Source: Roseburia sp. 831b (lineage in GTDB: Bacteria; Bacillota; Clostridia; Lachnospirales; Lachnospiraceae). Taken from it: a stretch of DNA of 64,000 bases. The notes beneath the pieces were generated by a model. It was not told the DNA's origin. It ran no database searches and worked only from the letters and a program-made list of their open reading frames with translations. Location: assembly GCF_001940165.2 (NCBI RefSeq), contig NZ_CP135162.1:2934001-2998000 (forward strand), written 5' to 3'. Position numbers and translations under genes: made by a program. Below are positions 3 to 33,177 of this stretch, one piece after another. Each line of letters opens with the position of its first letter. Within the stretch, counting starts at the first letter, position 1.

Positions 3-77
3 GACACATTGCAGCCACAGCTAAAATCCGTCTGGGCAGTATATGCCAATGGCTCTGCAGAGAAAGCGGAGGTGTAG
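3..77 (+). CDS. possible C-terminal tail of an upstream gene
   Basis: Frame 3 is open from the window edge to a TAG at 75-77 and would give a 24-residue tail ending ...YANGSAEKAEV. The codons look ordinary, so this may be the end of a gene that starts outside the window. It is too short to assign a family, and chance is a real alternative. Confidence 0.25.
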   Translation, partial: DTLQPQLKSVWAVYANGSAEKAEV

Positions 78-204
78 GCAGGCTGATATAAGTATTTTAA
101 GGAAGCTTTAAGTGTTTTCTGGCATTTTTGCAGAATCCCCTCCAAGGAAATCTGAGCATTAGGTGTTTCCTAGAGATTTTTACAAATTCTACTCCAATCA
201 TGGT

Positions 205-425
205 CTATCGATGGAGTAGAAATTTCTCAAAACTCCCCAAAACACCTAAATCCGTTAAGTCAATGGAGTAGAAATTTCAAAAAGCCGCTCAAAACATCTA
301 AAGTTGCTAGGACAATGGAGTAGAAAATCAACAAAATCGCCAAAAACACCTAAATCCATTAAGTCAATGGAGTAGATATAAAAAAAAACTCCAAAAACCA
401 CCTAAAGCCACCAGACCAATAATAA
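205..425. repeat. 52-bp tandem repeat array, copy A
   Basis: The block ATGGAGTAGAAATTTC recurs with start points near 211, 263, 315 and 367, an exact 52-bp spacing. Each unit also carries AAAACACCTAAA followed by an AAGTCA block. The whole unit is conserved, unlike a CRISPR repeat with unique spacers. The same 52-bp unit forms a second array at 21790-22110. There is no coding potential, and bases 78-508 hold nothing else I can name. Confidence 0.8.
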
Positions 426-433
426 TCATCCAT

Positions 434-534
434 CCAAACACCTAAGACGTCACACGATGAATATCTCCGGACGTGGCAGACGAGGATGCATTCTATTTCT
501 CCAAACACCTAAGGCGTCACACGGTGAATATCTC
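434..534. repeat. 34-bp duplication of the aspS 3' end
   Basis: Bases 434-467 and 501-534 match at 32 of 34 positions. The second copy contains the aspS stop codon and last codons; the first lies just beyond the gene. The shared CACCTAAGnCGTCA core resembles the CACCTAAAGACGTCA block of the 52-bp arrays, so the array and the gene end may share an origin. Confidence 0.7.
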
Positions 535-1831
535 TAGGGAAGAGCGTTGCTTCGCGGACATTCTCAAATCCAAGGAGCCGGCTTGTGAAACGTTCAAGTC
601 CAAGACCAAGACCGCCATGCGGTGGCATGCCGTATTTGTGCATCATAAGATAGCTCTCGAAAAGTTCCACATTCATGCCGCGTTTTTCTAGTTTGGCAAC
701 CTGTTCCTTATAGTTATGAATACGCTGTCCGCCGGTGGTGACTTCAAGACCGCGGAATAAAAGGTCAAAACTGCAGGTTTCCTCCGGGTTTGTTGGGTCA
801 TCCATTGCATAAAAAGGTCTTTTCTTGCTTGGATAATGCGTCACAAAGACAAAGTCAGAACCCGTTTTTTCAAAAATGAGCTTGGAAAGCAACTTTTCTT
901 CCTCTGGTTCAAAGTCGTCGAAGTCCTTGATTTCGCGGTGATAGGTGGCAGCAATCAATTCTTTTGCCTCCTTGAATTTTAAGGAAGGAATCGGCTCGCA
1001 TGCCGGCATCTGTACGCGCAGCAAAGACAGTTCTTTTTCATAGTGCGTAGAAAGATATCGTAGTGCGGCATGAATCATGGATGTCTCCATCTGCATAATT
1101 TCTTCAAAATTCTGAATATATCCCATCTCAAAATCAACACTTGTATACTCGTTCAAATGCCTGGAAGTGTCATGTTTTTCAGCGCGGAACACAGGTGCAA
1201 TCTCAAAGACACGTTCGTAAACGCCAACCATCATTTGCTTGTAAAATTGTGGACTTTGGGCAAGGTAGGCATCTTTTCCAAAATATTGGATTGGAAAAAT
1301 ATTTGCACCGCCTTCCGCACCGGTTGCAACGATTTTTGGTGTATGAATCTCTGTAAAATTCTGTTCATAAAGAAATTCCCGAAAACCGCGGCAGATTCCC
1401 TCCTGAATTTTGAAAATTGCACGCTCTTTTTCGTTCCGAAGTGTAATCGGGCGAAAATCTAACTTGTTTTCCAAGGAAGTGTCCACAAGTTTATTGTGGA
1501 TGACAATTGGAAGTTCGGCGGCTGGTGTGGATAAAATCTCAACGGAGCGAAGCCGCAATTCGAATCCGGTTTTGGAGCGTTCTTCTTTTACAACATCAGC
1601 GGTAAAAATGACGCATGATTCTTCGGAGAGTTCCGACAAGGCAAAATCGGAAAATTCTCCATATACACACTGGATAATCTCGCGTTTGGTGCGAAGTAAA
1701 ACAAAGGCAAAACCGCTCATTTTGCGGATTTTATAAATGCTGCCGTGAATGCGGATTTGTTTTTCTAAAAATTCCCCCTGCATAAGTTGTTCGGCAGAGA
1801 CTTCAGGGATAAGAGTTTGTGTTGTTTTCAT
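509..1831 (-). CDS. aspS: archaeal-type aspartyl-tRNA synthetase, probably non-discriminating
   Basis: This is a 440-residue class IIb aminoacyl-tRNA synthetase. An N-terminal OB-fold anticodon-binding domain (about residues 20-110) is followed by the catalytic core. Motif 2 is visible as FRAEKHDTSRHLNEYTSVDFE, and motif 3 as GGLGLGLERF near the C-terminus. The length and the lack of the bacterial GAD insertion match the archaeal AspRS/AsnRS class rather than the roughly 590-residue bacterial AspS. AspRS of this class in Clostridia is generally thought to charge both tRNA-Asp and tRNA-Asn, the latter feeding GatCAB; that specificity is inferred here. The start follows an AAAGGAA ribosome site. 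An unusually long leader with a leader peptide and terminator precedes it, so regulation by aminoacylation is likely. Confidence 0.9.
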   Translation of the reverse strand: MKTTQTLIPEVSAEQLMQGEFLEKQIRIHGSIYKIRKMSGFAFVLLRTKREIIQCVYGEFSDFALSELSEESCVIFTADVVKEERSKTGFELRLRSVEILSTPAAELPIVIHNKLVDTSLENKLDFRPITLRNEKERAIFKIQEGICRGFREFLYEQNFTEIHTPKIVATGAEGGANIFPIQYFGKDAYLAQSPQFYKQMMVGVYERVFEIAPVFRAEKHDTSRHLNEYTSVDFEMGYIQNFEEIMQMETSMIHAALRYLSTHYEKELSLLRVQMPACEPIPSLKFKEAKELIAATYHREIKDFDDFEPEEEKLLSKLIFEKTGSDFVFVTHYPSKKRPFYAMDDPTNPEETCSFDLLFRGLEVTTGGQRIHNYKEQVAKLEKRGMNVELFESYLMMHKYGMPPHGGLGLGLERFTSRLLGFENVREATLFPRDIHRVTP

Positions 1832-25288: not shown

Positions 25289-25590
25289 GGTGTCAAAAGG
25301 CAGCTTACAGGTTTCTTGTTGGTAAATTGCACAATGCCAAGTCTATTTTGTTCCGATGAGTGAACATAAGAAAAATCTAAGTATGCCTGATACAGATTAT
25401 TTCAGAGTGACGTGCCCGGAATTCAACGAGCCATCCTTGGCTCGTGAAGCCTTGTTCTGCCGTCCGTGGCAGAACATCACTGGGTATTTTGGGGCATACT
25501 AAGATTTTCTAATGTTCCCTCAAAGTCACAAAAAAGTCTTGCCTTTGAGCAATTTCCCAGCGACTAACTTGTGAGCAGCCTTTTGCCCCC
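25289..25590. repeat. dispersed palindromic element, copy 1
   Basis: The roughly 300-bp imperfect palindrome has outer arms GGTGTCAAAAGGCAGC and GCAGCCTTTTGCC. Its core (25407-25482) contains two adjacent hairpins: ACGAGCCA/TGGCTCGT and GTTCTGCC/GGCAGAAC. The core is the reverse complement of 27701-27776 with 3 differences in 76 bases. It has no ORF and resembles a MITE or REP-type intergenic repeat. Confidence 0.8.
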
Positions 25591-27489: not shown

Positions 27490-27890
27490 GTTTGGATGTC
27501 AAAAAACTGTGAGCTGCCTTTTCGCATCCGAAGCTATCACACAGAAAGCATATTTCATGAAAAACATGGAGTATGCTTTTTCTTTCGGTTCGGTTGTGAA
27601 AAGAGGACTTGCAAATTAGTAGATAACAAATTGCACAAAGCCCGGTCGATTTTGTGATTTTGGGAGAATATTAGAAAATCTTTGTATGGCTATTCCTTCT
27701 CAGTGATGTTCTGCCACGGACGGCAGAACAAGGCTTCACGAGCCATGGATGGCTCGTTGAACGCCGGGCACGTCACTCTGAAATATACTTTGTTAGGCAT
27801 ACATAGACTTTTCTTATATTCGTACATCAAAACAAAATCGACCGGGCTTTGTACAATTTGTCATATAGTAACTATGAGCCCTCTTTTCCC
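27490..27890. repeat. dispersed palindromic element, copy 2 (inverted)
   Basis: The core 27701-27776 is the reverse complement of the core of copy 1 at 25407-25482. Flanking arms also match: the AATTGCACAA...TCGATTTTGT and TATTAGAAAATCTTTG blocks and their reverse copies. A short insertion near 27530-27640 lengthens the left arm. It fills most of the gap 27466-28048; no gene was found in this gap. Confidence 0.75.
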
Positions 27891-30352: not shown

Positions 30353-30473
30353 ATAGAAAACCTACCCGATTAGTAGGATAACAAGGCAGATGCGAAAGTA
30401 CTCTGCTTCTTTATTTGTGCGAGTAACGAGGAAAAATAAGTTCCTCATAGTTAAAATTAGAATCGAGGTTTTT

Positions 30474-31796
30474 ATGTTAAATCAATTTTCAAGAACGCAA
30501 TTGCTGATTGGAGAACAGGCAATTGAAAAGTTAAAGGCATCCAGAGTAGCAGTTTTTGGAATCGGCGGAGTCGGCGGTTATGTCTGCGAAGCCCTGGTGC
30601 GAAGCGGAGTCGGGGAATTTGACCTGATTGATGATGATAAAGTCTGCCTGACAAACTTAAACAGACAGATTATTGCGACGCGAAAAACCGTTGGAAAATA
30701 TAAAGCAGATGTGATGAAAGAGCGTATGCTGGAAATCAATCCAGATGTAAAAGTGCATGTTCATAAATGTTTTTTCCTGCCGGAAAATGCAGACGAATTC
30801 CCGTTTGAGGAGTACGATTATGTGGTGGATGCAGTAGATACTGTTACGGCAAAGCTTGAGATTATCATGCGTGCAAAAGGACTTGGTGTTCCGGTCATCA
30901 GTGCGATGGGAGCTGGAAATAAGTTGGATCCGGGCAGATTCCAGGTGACTGATATTTATAAGACAAAAGTTTGTCCGCTCGCACGCGTGATGCGAAGAGA
31001 ATTAAAGAAAAGAAACGTCAAAAGTTTGAAGGTCGTTTATTCGGATGAACAGCCAATCCGTCCAATTGATGATATGTCAATCAGTTGTCGTACGAACTGT
31101 ATCTGCCCACCAGGGGCAAAACACAAATGCACAGACCGACGCGATATTCCGGGAAGTACCGCATTTGTTCCGGCGGTGGCAGGTCTTATGATCGCAGGTG
31201 AGATTGTGAAAGATTTATCAAACAGCACGGGCAGTTCCTCAAATGCAGCTGGGAAAAAAGGAAAAAACGGTTATCATGACTTGAAATGTAATCTGGTTGA
31301 CATGGTGGTCGAGGAGCAGGCAAAGCTTGGCTACAATAAAGAAGCAATCCGGCTCTATTATCCGTTAAGTTCACTCAACCATATTTTAAATACGTCGCTT
31401 GATACAGAAGAAATGCTTTCTTATTTAATAGCCTTCCCGGCTTATGTAGAAAAAATTTGCGGCGAAGTAAAAGTTTCCAAGGAAGAAGAGCGTTTCTGCT
31501 TTTACCTTGGAGAAGATTTTTCGGAGCATGTGCATACTCACAAAGCCGGTAACCGGTTCTTAGCCGAACTGGTAGAACTGGTTGGAAAACATGGCACCAC
31601 CTTACAGCAGATAGAAGAATTTTTCCATGCACAGGAAAAATCATGTGTGGTTGAACCGGCAGAACACGGGGAGTTTGATATCTTGATTCGCTTCACGGAA
31701 GGAAACGACAACAACTATTATTGCTTCAAAGACGAGGGAGGCCATATCATTTACCACAGATTTTTGCCGAAAGATTACGAGGATTTTGATTTTTAA
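30474..31796 (+). CDS. tcdA: tRNA threonylcarbamoyladenosine dehydratase with a C-terminal extension
   Basis: The 440-residue protein starts at 30474 (MLNQFSRTQLLIGEQAI). Residues 1-250 are a ThiF/E1-like domain: nucleotide site VFGIGGVGGYV, then NLNRQIIATRKTVGK, and SISCRTNCICPPGAK with clustered Cys. TcdA cyclises t6A-37 of tRNA in an ATP-dependent step. After about residue 260 a second domain of about 180 residues is fused (IRLYYPLSSLNHIL ... EEFFHAQEK), which resembles a stand-alone Lachnospiraceae protein family (possibly DUF3877) of unknown role. Normal TcdA ends near 250-270 residues. Confidence 0.85.
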   Translation: MLNQFSRTQLLIGEQAIEKLKASRVAVFGIGGVGGYVCEALVRSGVGEFDLIDDDKVCLTNLNRQIIATRKTVGKYKADVMKERMLEINPDVKVHVHKCFFLPENADEFPFEEYDYVVDAVDTVTAKLEIIMRAKGLGVPVISAMGAGNKLDPGRFQVTDIYKTKVCPLARVMRRELKKRNVKSLKVVYSDEQPIRPIDDMSISCRTNCICPPGAKHKCTDRRDIPGSTAFVPAVAGLMIAGEIVKDLSNSTGSSSNAAGKKGKNGYHDLKCNLVDMVVEEQAKLGYNKEAIRLYYPLSSLNHILNTSLDTEEMLSYLIAFPAYVEKICGEVKVSKEEERFCFYLGEDFSEHVHTHKAGNRFLAELVELVGKHGTTLQQIEEFFHAQEKSCVVEPAEHGEFDILIRFTEGNDNNYYCFKDEGGHIIYHRFLPKDYEDFDF

Positions 31797-31833
31797 AATC
31801 TTTCTGACAAAACAAAAAATAGTGTGCAAGCAA

Positions 31834-31862
31834 TTGATTTTTTTTTAATAATCGCATATACT
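31834..31862 (+). promoter_or_regulatory. promoter of the DUF3800-associated RNA
   Basis: TTGATT, a 17-base spacer, then TATACT. The predicted start near 31869 lies about 110 bases ahead of the DUF3800 gene. Confidence 0.6.
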
Positions 31863-31868
31863 ATTTGT

Positions 31869-31965
31869 ACAGATGTAGATTTGTTGTGCGTATGCACATC
31901 ATATATATGGGCTGGTCGAAAGACCCGGGTCCACCAAACGGCGGGTAAGACACCCGCCATTTTTA
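31869..31965 (+). ncRNA. short structured RNA upstream of DUF3800
   Basis: The transcript of about 95 nt would fold as TGTGC/GCACA (near 31884-31900), then a GGGC-GGTC stem capped by GAAA and closed by GACC and GTCC (31910-31932), then the GGCGGGT/ACCCGCC terminator (31940-31958) with a T-run. GACCC and GGGTC in the middle could also form a pseudoknot. Comparative work has described several RNA motifs next to DUF3800 genes; whether this is one of them needs a covariance search. The strong folding, own promoter and own terminator are seen directly. Confidence 0.65.
31940..31964 (+). terminator. terminator of the DUF3800-associated RNA
   Basis: GGCGGGT, a 5-base loop, ACCCGCC, then ATTTTT. The DUF3800 start codon lies 17 bases further on, so most transcripts would stop before the gene. 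Confidence 0.8.
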
Positions 31966-31980
31966 TTATACGAGGGATGA

Positions 31981-32655
31981 ATGAAAGAGTTAAGTATTTT
32001 TGTAGATGAATCCGGCGATTTTGGGGAATATGATTATCATGCACCATTTTATATTATATCTATAGTATTACATGATCAATCTGTTGATATCAGTGATGAT
32101 ATGAAAAAATTTGAGAATGAACTCAGCAATATTGGATGGCCAAAACACAGTGTTCATGCCGGGCCGGTAATAAGATCGGAAGAAGAATACCGAGGATATG
32201 ACTTAAAAGAACGACAAAAAATTATTATGAAAATGATGAGCTTTGTACGTCGTTTGGATATAAACTTTAAGTCAATATACATAGAAAAGAAACATATAGA
32301 GGATTCCATAGAAGCAACAGGAAAGCTTAGCAAGCAATTAGCAGTATTCATTCGAGATAATTATGCTTTCTTTTGCGATTATGATACGGTTAAGATATAT
32401 TATGATAATGGACAAGTGGAGGTAACAAGGATTTTATCATCCGTTTTTAATGCGTTGCTAGAGAATGTTGAATTCTGTAAGGTGATTCCGGCCGATTATA
32501 GGTTGTTTCAGGTTGCAGATTTGATATGTACACTTAAGCTAACGGAACTAAAGATGGAGAATCATTTGTTATCAAAGTCAGAAATATATTTTTTCAATGA
32601 CGAGAGAACGCTCAAAAAGAATTACCTGAAGCCATTATCAAAGAAAGAATTGTAG
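31981..32655 (+). CDS. DUF3800 protein, predicted RNase H-like fold
   Basis: The 224-residue protein opens with the family hallmark FVDESGDFG (Asp9, Glu10), followed by a hydrophobic strand. It also has HAGP (His59), a second acidic site in YYDNGQ (Asp142) and FQVADLICT (Gln177, Asp180). The spacing of acidic residues is consistent with an RNase H-like metal-dependent nuclease fold; activity is inferred. No signal peptide. The gene is more A/T-rich than its neighbours and stands between tcdA and the cystine operon, suggesting acquisition. A structured RNA precedes it. Confidence 0.85.
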   Translation: MKELSIFVDESGDFGEYDYHAPFYIISIVLHDQSVDISDDMKKFENELSNIGWPKHSVHAGPVIRSEEEYRGYDLKERQKIIMKMMSFVRRLDINFKSIYIEKKHIEDSIEATGKLSKQLAVFIRDNYAFFCDYDTVKIYYDNGQVEVTRILSSVFNALLENVEFCKVIPADYRLFQVADLICTLKLTELKMENHLLSKSEIYFFNDERTLKKNYLKPLSKKEL

Positions 32656-32748
32656 ATGCTAAACTTCACATTTTACGTTGAGATAATAGTCTGGAAACCT
32701 GGATTTTTGCAATAAACATAGTTTCGTAAAAGGTGAATGCAGAATCAC

Positions 32749-32930
32749 AAAAGCCGCTTGGACACTGGTTTTATACAACCTGTGAGTCCAAGTGGCTTTT
32801 TTTATGTAATAGGAAATTTCGTTCCTATTACATAAAAAAGCTCCACAAGGATCGCACTGCGGCGGAGTTGAACAATGTCGCAAATGCGACCCGCCGCAGG
32901 CGGAGAATCCTGCAAGCAGGATTATTTTTT
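32749..32930. repeat. cluster of four consecutive hairpins
   Basis: In order: a long terminator-like stem AAAAGCC...GGCTTTTTTT (32749-32804); a perfect 12-bp stem ATGTAATAGGAA/TTCCTATTACAT (32804-32833); CTGCGGCGG/CCGCCGCAG enclosing GTCGC/GCGAC (32857-32899); and AATCCTGC/GCAGGATT with a T-run (32906-32930). The first probably terminates the DUF3800 gene. The rest look like an intergenic repeat module. No gene is present in 32656-33015. Confidence 0.65.
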
Positions 32931-32955
32931 AGAAATAAAAAACATACAAAACCTA

Positions 32956-32984
32956 TTGACATAGTAGGAATAAAAGAGTATGAT
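32956..32984 (+). promoter_or_regulatory. promoter of the Cys-leader operon
   Basis: TTGACA, 17 bases, then TATGAT, 32 bases before the leader-peptide ATG. Confidence 0.7.
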
Positions 32985-33015
32985 AACAAACATCAAAGGA
33001 AAGGAGCAGGACAAG

Positions 33016-33126
33016 ATGAGAAGAGATAACGTAGGAAATGGATGTTGTATGTGTATGTGTCGAATGCTATTCTCCCAGGCAGCGGATGTGCCGGGCGTCT
33101 ATGACAATCTTGTCATGCGCCCGTAA
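33016..33126 (+). CDS. cysteine-rich leader peptide
   Basis: The 36-codon ORF sits behind AAAGGAGCAGGACAAG and starts MRRDNVGNG followed by CCMCMCR, so four of six consecutive codons are TGT (33043-33060). It ends TAA at 33124. The DNA after the Cys codons supplies one strand of an antiterminator. The peptide itself is probably not functional; translation speed through the Cys codons is the signal. The ABC transporter downstream fits cystine or cysteine uptake. Confidence 0.8.
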   Translation: MRRDNVGNGCCMCMCRMLFSQAADVPGVYDNLVMRP

Positions 33127-33177
33127 AGCAGACGTAAGTTTGAACCATTTGCCTGGGAGTCTCCCAGGCTTTTCTTT
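33072..33177 (+). promoter_or_regulatory. Cys-responsive transcription attenuator
   Basis: CTCCCAGGCA (33072-33081) inside the leader ORF is exactly complementary to TGCCTGGGAG (33150-33159). The latter is also the 5' arm of a terminator with its partner at 33161-33169, followed by TTTTCTTTT. A hairpin (GGGCG/CGCCC with ATGACA/TGTCAT, 33093-33122) fills the space between. A ribosome stalled on the Cys codons leaves 33072-33081 free to form the antiterminator; full translation to 33126 covers it and lets the terminator form. Confidence 0.8.

Follow-up and report, generated by a model that had tools for sequence, protein, structure and literature searches.

The segment at 31834–32655 of the window (the whole 64,000-nt stretch of the Roseburia sp. 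831b genome that was analysed) is a two-part RNA–protein cassette and a member of the catalogued DUF3800-XI/PF12686 pairing. We give about even odds (roughly 0.5) to the reading that in this pair the RNA restrains the nuclease, in the manner of a type III toxin–antitoxin or abortive-infection module, though the pair stands outside that family. A sequence-only reading of the window had described a promoter, a folded RNA of ~95 nt, a terminator and a DUF3800 gene, and each of these parts was recovered in place:

31834–31862 (+): promoter-like site TTGATT-17-TATACT (9/12 matches)
31869–31898 (+): two small 5' leader hairpins (31869–31884 and 31885–31898; per-sequence fold)
31908–31955 (+): DUF3800-XI RNA core by the Rfam definition (RF02975, 68.5 bits)
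31908–31933 (+): hairpin 1, with a near-invariant lower stem and one G-U pair (alignment and pair count)
31940–31965 (+): hairpin 2 and U-rich tail, an intrinsic terminator before the gene (terminator scan)
31972–31976 (+): Shine-Dalgarno-like GAGGG (read in the sequence)
31981–32655 (+): DUF3800 gene, 224 aa, predicted RNase H-fold nuclease (PF12686, structure model)

The RNA element, the protein and their setting

The match of the core to RF02975 lies well over the curated cut-off of 37.8 bits (E = 4.7e-13 for the window) and supplies the class that had been left unnamed when the locus was linked to published DUF3800 RNA motifs. It is the single DUF3800-XI RNA over the cut-off in this genome. 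An RNA model, R1, scores it at 84.1 bits, the window's RNA being included in R1's own alignment. The RNA at 31869–31965 is strongly folded, as had been claimed (z = −3.44; 0 of 200 shuffles fold equally well), and the two leader hairpins are its variable part, missing from some relatives. The terminator hairpin proper spans 31940–31958 and is followed by ATTTTTATTA. Taken alone the promoter-like site is weak, with 14 such sites per 3 kb vs 8.0 in shuffles; 68 of the 92 linked relatives, however, have a promoter with at least 9/12 matches no more than 90 nt ahead of the motif, vs 22% of shuffles. The cow-rumen-3 motif (RF03083), which has a 3' hairpin in common with the window's RNA, was considered and rejected: a search of 295 genomes returned only the DUF3800-XI locus of G250, below the cut-off.

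PF12686 (DUF3800) is the only Pfam family found in the protein (41.4 bits vs a gathering threshold of 21). The active site of RNase HII consists of an adjacent Asp-Glu followed by two Asp, and the DUF3800 protein has the same layout. The nuclease pattern proposed for it earlier (Asp9/Glu10, Asp142 and Asp180) is borne out: D9, D142 and D180 do not vary among 52 relatives, in which conservation of E10 reaches at least 90%. The structure model (pLDDT 94.1) resembles RNase HII/H2, which suggests a class-2 RNase H-like fold. RNase HII and RNase H2 are its top fold matches; on the other side, agreement is partial (TM about 0.4) and no sequence similarity to either enzyme was detected. Solved structures gave no match when searched with the single sequence and only a katanin chain (E = 0.2) with a profile, and neither NCBIfam nor PHROGs contains a family for the protein. 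An RNase H fold with a catalytic rearrangement is stated for DUF3800 in excerpts of PMC10910872.

The cassette had been described as an A/T-rich island, and its GC content is indeed 34.3% vs 40.6% for the window, with only 0.5% of equal-sized stretches being lower. Ordinary chromosomal genes make up the scanned neighbourhood (ThiF/DUF3877, HD proteins, a GDSL hydrolase and an ABC transporter solute-binding protein). The ThiF-family (tcdA-like) protein at 30390–31796 is fused to a DUF3877 domain, and six same-genus stretches match only its ThiF part. In the four stretches around a tcdA-like gene that were inspected for an empty site, no relative with the same gene order was found. Several other elements were observed nearby. 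The region 32956–33169 carries a strong promoter (11/12), a 36-codon leader ORF rich in Cys codons (33016–33126; CCMCMC) and mutually exclusive arms CTCCCAGGC / GCCTGGGAG / CTCCCAGGC ahead of a U-tract, and looks like a cysteine-codon transcription attenuator before the GDSL hydrolase and an amino-acid ABC transporter. The ~136-bp segment at 32796–32931 is an intergenic repeat with four more copies in the genome at 96–99% identity. Two TwoAYGGAY RNAs (RF01731) lie in diverging orientation at 25355–25524 (−) and 27659–27828 (+), scoring 119.6 and 123.6 bits, respectively.

Covariation and linkage of the RNA and the protein

Covariation across homologous loci, whose absence the sequence-only reading had named as a refutation, is present and strong. 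In an alignment of 104 of the 111 listed relatives (three near-duplicates and four odd or weak sequences were left out), 95.7% of the cells of the two-hairpin structure pair, changes on both sides occur in 14 of 17 pairs, hairpin 2 shows them in 7 of 7 pairs, and none of 500 shuffles attains a single one of five measures. When the partner strand is slid out of register, pairing falls to 35–57%. A separate count on 93 rows, from which the 11 of 104 rows with an insertion in column 17 were left out, gave pairing of 96 and 99.5% for hairpins 1 and 2, respectively. The lower stem of hairpin 1 (GGGCU/GGUCC) is near-invariant, one U-G pair being kept in 104 of 104 rows, which suggests a protein-binding site, as such conservation is what one would show. 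In five loci (L168, L171, L189, L193 and L199), where the match of R1 is limited to positions 1–54, hairpin 2 is retained and a further hairpin precedes the U-tract, so that hairpin 2 may do more than terminate.

In 392 genomes of the order, RF02975 was found at 42 places (E ≤ 1e-3), 34 of them over the cut-off. A protein search of the same order gave 18 near-full-length places, among them a gene truncated at the edge of its contig (G250) and another interrupted by an in-frame TGA (G380); all 18 proteins sit directly 3' of a DUF3800-XI RNA. Seen from the RNA, the 42 places comprise these 18, 6 with remnants carrying deletions or frameshifts (L127, L128, L129, L130, L038 and L021) and 18 without a protein match at the threshold used. 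Among the latter, L109 retains a stub with a stop, L037 seems by eye to retain the last codons, and L040 and L041 are weak; we take the RNA match at L033, which falls within a coding gene, to be fortuitous. Protein fragments alone were found in another eight genomes, with the RNA in six (G142, G310, G160, G391, G231 and G083) and no RNA nearby in G363 and G210.

The linkage extends beyond the order sample. In named genomes, represented by the best 80 of 510 relatives (54–87% identity), R1 finds the RNA in 80 of 80 loci (partially in L200, at a contig edge); most of these RNAs sit in R1's alignment and so match by construction, and a loose pattern that predates R1 found the RNA in 79 of 80. The gene contains an in-frame or insertion stop in 4 of 94 loci examined (L160, L174, L208 and L209; L158, flagged as well, merely ran past the examined stretch and was not counted). 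Among 18 loci on viral contigs, 14 encode near-full-length proteins, all 14 with the RNA by R1 (L231 marginally, at 17.8 bits); in the other four, the RNA was found in L232 and L235 and not in L233 and L234. Of 34 control stretches (30 DUF3800 loci from the phylum and 4 others), R1 matched only L298, itself a DUF3800-XI locus, and thus 0 of 29 DUF3800 loci outside the XI class. RNA and protein distances correlate (Spearman 0.72, 47 pairs, 0 of 999 permutations), as expected for a unit inherited together, and the distance from hairpin 2 to the start codon, with a median of 19 nt in 76 loci, leaves little room for a second promoter. R1 also matched 35 of 291 class genomes at E ≤ 1e-3, 8 of them with at least 48 bits and G833 with 33 bits; the remaining matches (<28 bits) are taken as ordinary terminators. 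Matches were found in 1 of 50,697 phage records and 1 of 72,556 plasmid records. Second DUF3800-XI-like RNAs were seen on the opposite strand near the first at L171 (5694–5754, −), L210 (915–976, −) and, by eye, L042.

In addition to these data, Rfam was run on 30 of the DUF3800 loci that a search had located in 299 genomes of the phylum, and it identified RNAs of class I (1 locus), VII (2), VIII (4) and XI (1) and none in 22 loci. All seven RNAs of the other classes are found where the gene ends, on its 3' side, with gaps of −22 to +14 nt and six of them on the opposite strand, so that a leader role does not generalise; across the family, this position would favour a partner acting in trans. 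The N-terminal motif could be placed in 20 of the 30 loci, and L298, the XI locus, was the only one with a terminator ahead of the gene. Over a scanned stretch of 3.6 kb, Rfam matched nothing next to the one further DUF3800 gene of the Roseburia genome (L297). The DUF3800 RNA classes, reportedly published in 2017, are said to be numbered to XI. Excerpts of the DUF3800 literature contain no stated function for these classes or for an RNA–protein pair.

These distributions bear on a purely cis-acting role, one of the options first proposed, in which the hairpins form an attenuator that lets the protein or a signal control read-through into DUF3800 and the RNA has no separate job. A terminator immediately ahead of the gene and in its orientation, and the linkage in all near-full-length cases seen, speak for such a leader. 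We nevertheless regard it as unlikely, as 18 of the 42 RNA places lack a DUF3800 match downstream, 8 of 15 stand-alone RNAs examined keep a promoter of at least 9/12 (vs 19% of shuffles), three other classes have the RNA 3' of the gene, and the five loci with a further hairpin before the U-tract retain hairpin 2. The RNA places also speak against a reversal of roles, with a harmful RNA that DUF3800 degrades or sequesters: the protein is broken or absent at 24 of 42, and a harmful RNA should not survive alone. That reversal appears highly improbable, even though a Legionella screen scored a DUF3800 gene (known at family level) as essential in an accessory region beside antitoxin genes (excerpts of PMC7811196).

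The RNA was also inspected for room for a guide, and two forms were seen. In form 1, the motif is immediately preceded by a 5' hairpin whose sequence varies, and the −10 box is some 30–45 nt upstream (a 5' hairpin with a stem of at least 6 occurs in 51 of 92 linked loci vs 8% of shuffles). In form 2, the −10 box starts about 8–21 nt before the motif, so close that transcripts have to start at the motif or next to it; the terminator defines the 3' end, and form 2 is left without a guide-capable stretch. The sole variable unpaired stretch of the RNA is a linker of a few bases. An RNA-guided nuclease, another of the original options, would, like IscB/TnpB, carry a variable guide stretch in its RNA and is therefore disfavoured. 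The wider idea of an RNA-dependent effector, in which the RNA would activate or direct the nuclease as its scaffold or cofactor, draws on the adjacency of all near-full-length proteins seen to the RNA and on the occurrence of DUF3800 proteins beside Cas12a2 and VI-F effectors (excerpts of PMC10910872 and PMC12669027). It seems doubtful to us, given that guide-like variable single-stranded sequence is lacking, that the RNA can start at the motif, and that RNAs persist without a working protein, which would be needless for a cofactor.

Mobility, hosts and neighbourhood

Near-identical units occur in unrelated flanks, with sharp edges near the promoter (left) and at the stop codon (right). L159 and L161 share 98.1% identity over −53..747 and L197 and L209 share 96.2%, all with unrelated flanks, and the similarity between the window and L138 spans 31841 to 32655. 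The next downstream ORF lies on the two strands in 30 and 31 of 61 cases, so the unit seems not to belong to an operon. These pairs, together with several internally deleted copies that retain both ends, might be attributed to a selfish cassette whose RNA and RNase H-fold protein serve its own movement, the stand-alone RNAs being non-autonomous copies. There is very little probability in this explanation, since by eye no common terminal sequence was seen beyond the promoter and stop codon, the Roseburia genome has a single copy over the cut-off, and movement in Pseudobutyrivibrio is accounted for by other means, i.e. repeated metA 3' ends and a serine recombinase in one island.

Pseudobutyrivibrio carries the unit or its RNA behind metA. 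The final ~60 bp of metA occur again within the island, which points to repeated site-specific insertion. The idea of an integron array was rejected, as the repeat is the 3' end of metA. R1 found 10 RNAs in 16 Pseudobutyrivibrio stretches, only 1 of them followed by a DUF3800 match; the 7 of the 16 stretches that were scanned with Rfam also hold skipping-rope and pemK RNAs. One stand-alone RNA and the block that follows it are, by eye, common to five species. At L273 (15400–15960), this block holds a 50-nt unit repeated 2.1 times, a hairpin and a PBECR4 nuclease gene, directly 3' of the stand-alone DUF3800-XI RNA, in a type III toxin–antitoxin-like layout; this repeat has no Rfam match and the PBECR4 protein no NCBIfam match.

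Record titles place the cassette in Lachnospiraceae and Erysipelotrichaceae, in Treponema and other Spirochaetales, in Fibrobacter and in Acidaminococcaceae, among other hosts; many of these records are MAGs, so single assignments may be wrong. In L314, a Collinsella aerofaciens plasmid record, a distant broken DUF3800 copy is separated by two small ORFs from brxL, a BREX gene, and a hairpin before it weakly matches R1 (19.9 bits). Enrichment in defence islands was considered and is not used as support: among 113 neighbour ORFs, compared with no control, DUF1016/YhcG, AbiEii, SoFic and integrase genes are scattered.

A proposed RNA-restrained nuclease and its relation to known systems

Among the options of the sequence-only reading, an RNA-restrained nuclease acting as a toxin–antitoxin or in defence appears to fit best. 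In such a module, transcription from one promoter would yield a short RNA (about 95 nt here), mostly stopping at the terminator, and read-through, for which the architecture is observed, would yield the DUF3800 mRNA, so that the RNA should exceed the protein. The protein would be a metal-dependent nuclease of class-2 RNase H type, as its predicted fold and conserved residues suggest. The near-invariant hairpin would bind the protein and keep it inactive, and loss of a short-lived RNA, e.g. upon transcription shut-off by a phage, would free the nuclease. The unit spreads as a compact cassette, presumably with some benefit.

In favour of this proposal we count the strong covariation, the 5' RNA at 18/18, 80/80 and 14/14 loci vs 0/29 non-XI loci, the little room for a second promoter, the retention of the RNA where the protein is broken or absent (6 + 18 of 42 places), the co-divergence, the predicted class-2 RNase H-like fold, the 3' RNAs of other classes, and an architecture shared with AbiF-RCd22 and ToxIN. 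Against it we count the essential Legionella gene (excerpts of PMC7811196), which is unexpected for a plain toxin, the two of eight fragment-only genomes without the RNA, the lack of tandem repeats, the lack of any PADLOC model matching the protein, and the scattered defence genes. In addition, the RNA is ~1/12 of the gene length, so the one-way loss may be partly neutral and is only suggestive. Somewhat more tentatively, DUF3800-XI and the other DUF3800 classes may form a large group of RNA-restrained nuclease modules, so far unrecognised as such, that share a class-2 RNase H fold, with the RNA 5' in XI and 3' in at least three others and with RNA and protein co-diversified. We know of no RNA-restrained toxin with this fold. 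If the RNA restrains the protein, this would account at once for an orphan RNA set and a common protein domain, and such toxins would gain a new nuclease fold. The pair was already catalogued, and the combined evidence makes its function directly testable: it is compact and cloneable and gives clear predictions (one promoter, RNA and nuclease), with defined active-site residues and natural broken-protein copies as controls.

Compared with the catalogued combination of RF02975 RNA and PF12686 protein, the window shows a full match of both RNA core and domain, and no difference was found. The DUF3800 proteins of V-A2 and VI-F CRISPR loci share the domain name, with a stated RNase H fold, but are TPR-fused or CRISPR accessories (excerpts of PMC10910872 and PMC12669027), whereas no cas gene is present among the four neighbours scanned in the window. 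The order of type III toxin–antitoxins such as ToxIN (RNA first, terminator between, nuclease gene second; excerpts of PMC5772629) is found here behind a promoter; these systems differ in having a tandem-repeat antitoxin and a ToxN-type endoribonuclease, whereas 31780–32700 is free of tandem repeats and the protein is DUF3800, not of the ToxN/AbiQ kind. The nearest tested precedent, by analogy, is AbiF-RCd22 of Clostridioides difficile, whose motif (abiF, RF03085) is credited to the same 2017 RNA survey (excerpts of PMC12373285, as for all that follows on this system). Its protein is of the Abi_2/AbiD/F (Cas13-like) type rather than DUF3800, its RNA has two motif copies and its function has been tested. 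The two have a common plan, i.e. a SigA-type promoter, an RNA of about 100–130 nt in AbiF-RCd22, a terminator and a protein gene reached by read-through, and in AbiF-RCd22 the RNA neutralises the toxin by direct binding, both in cis and in trans.
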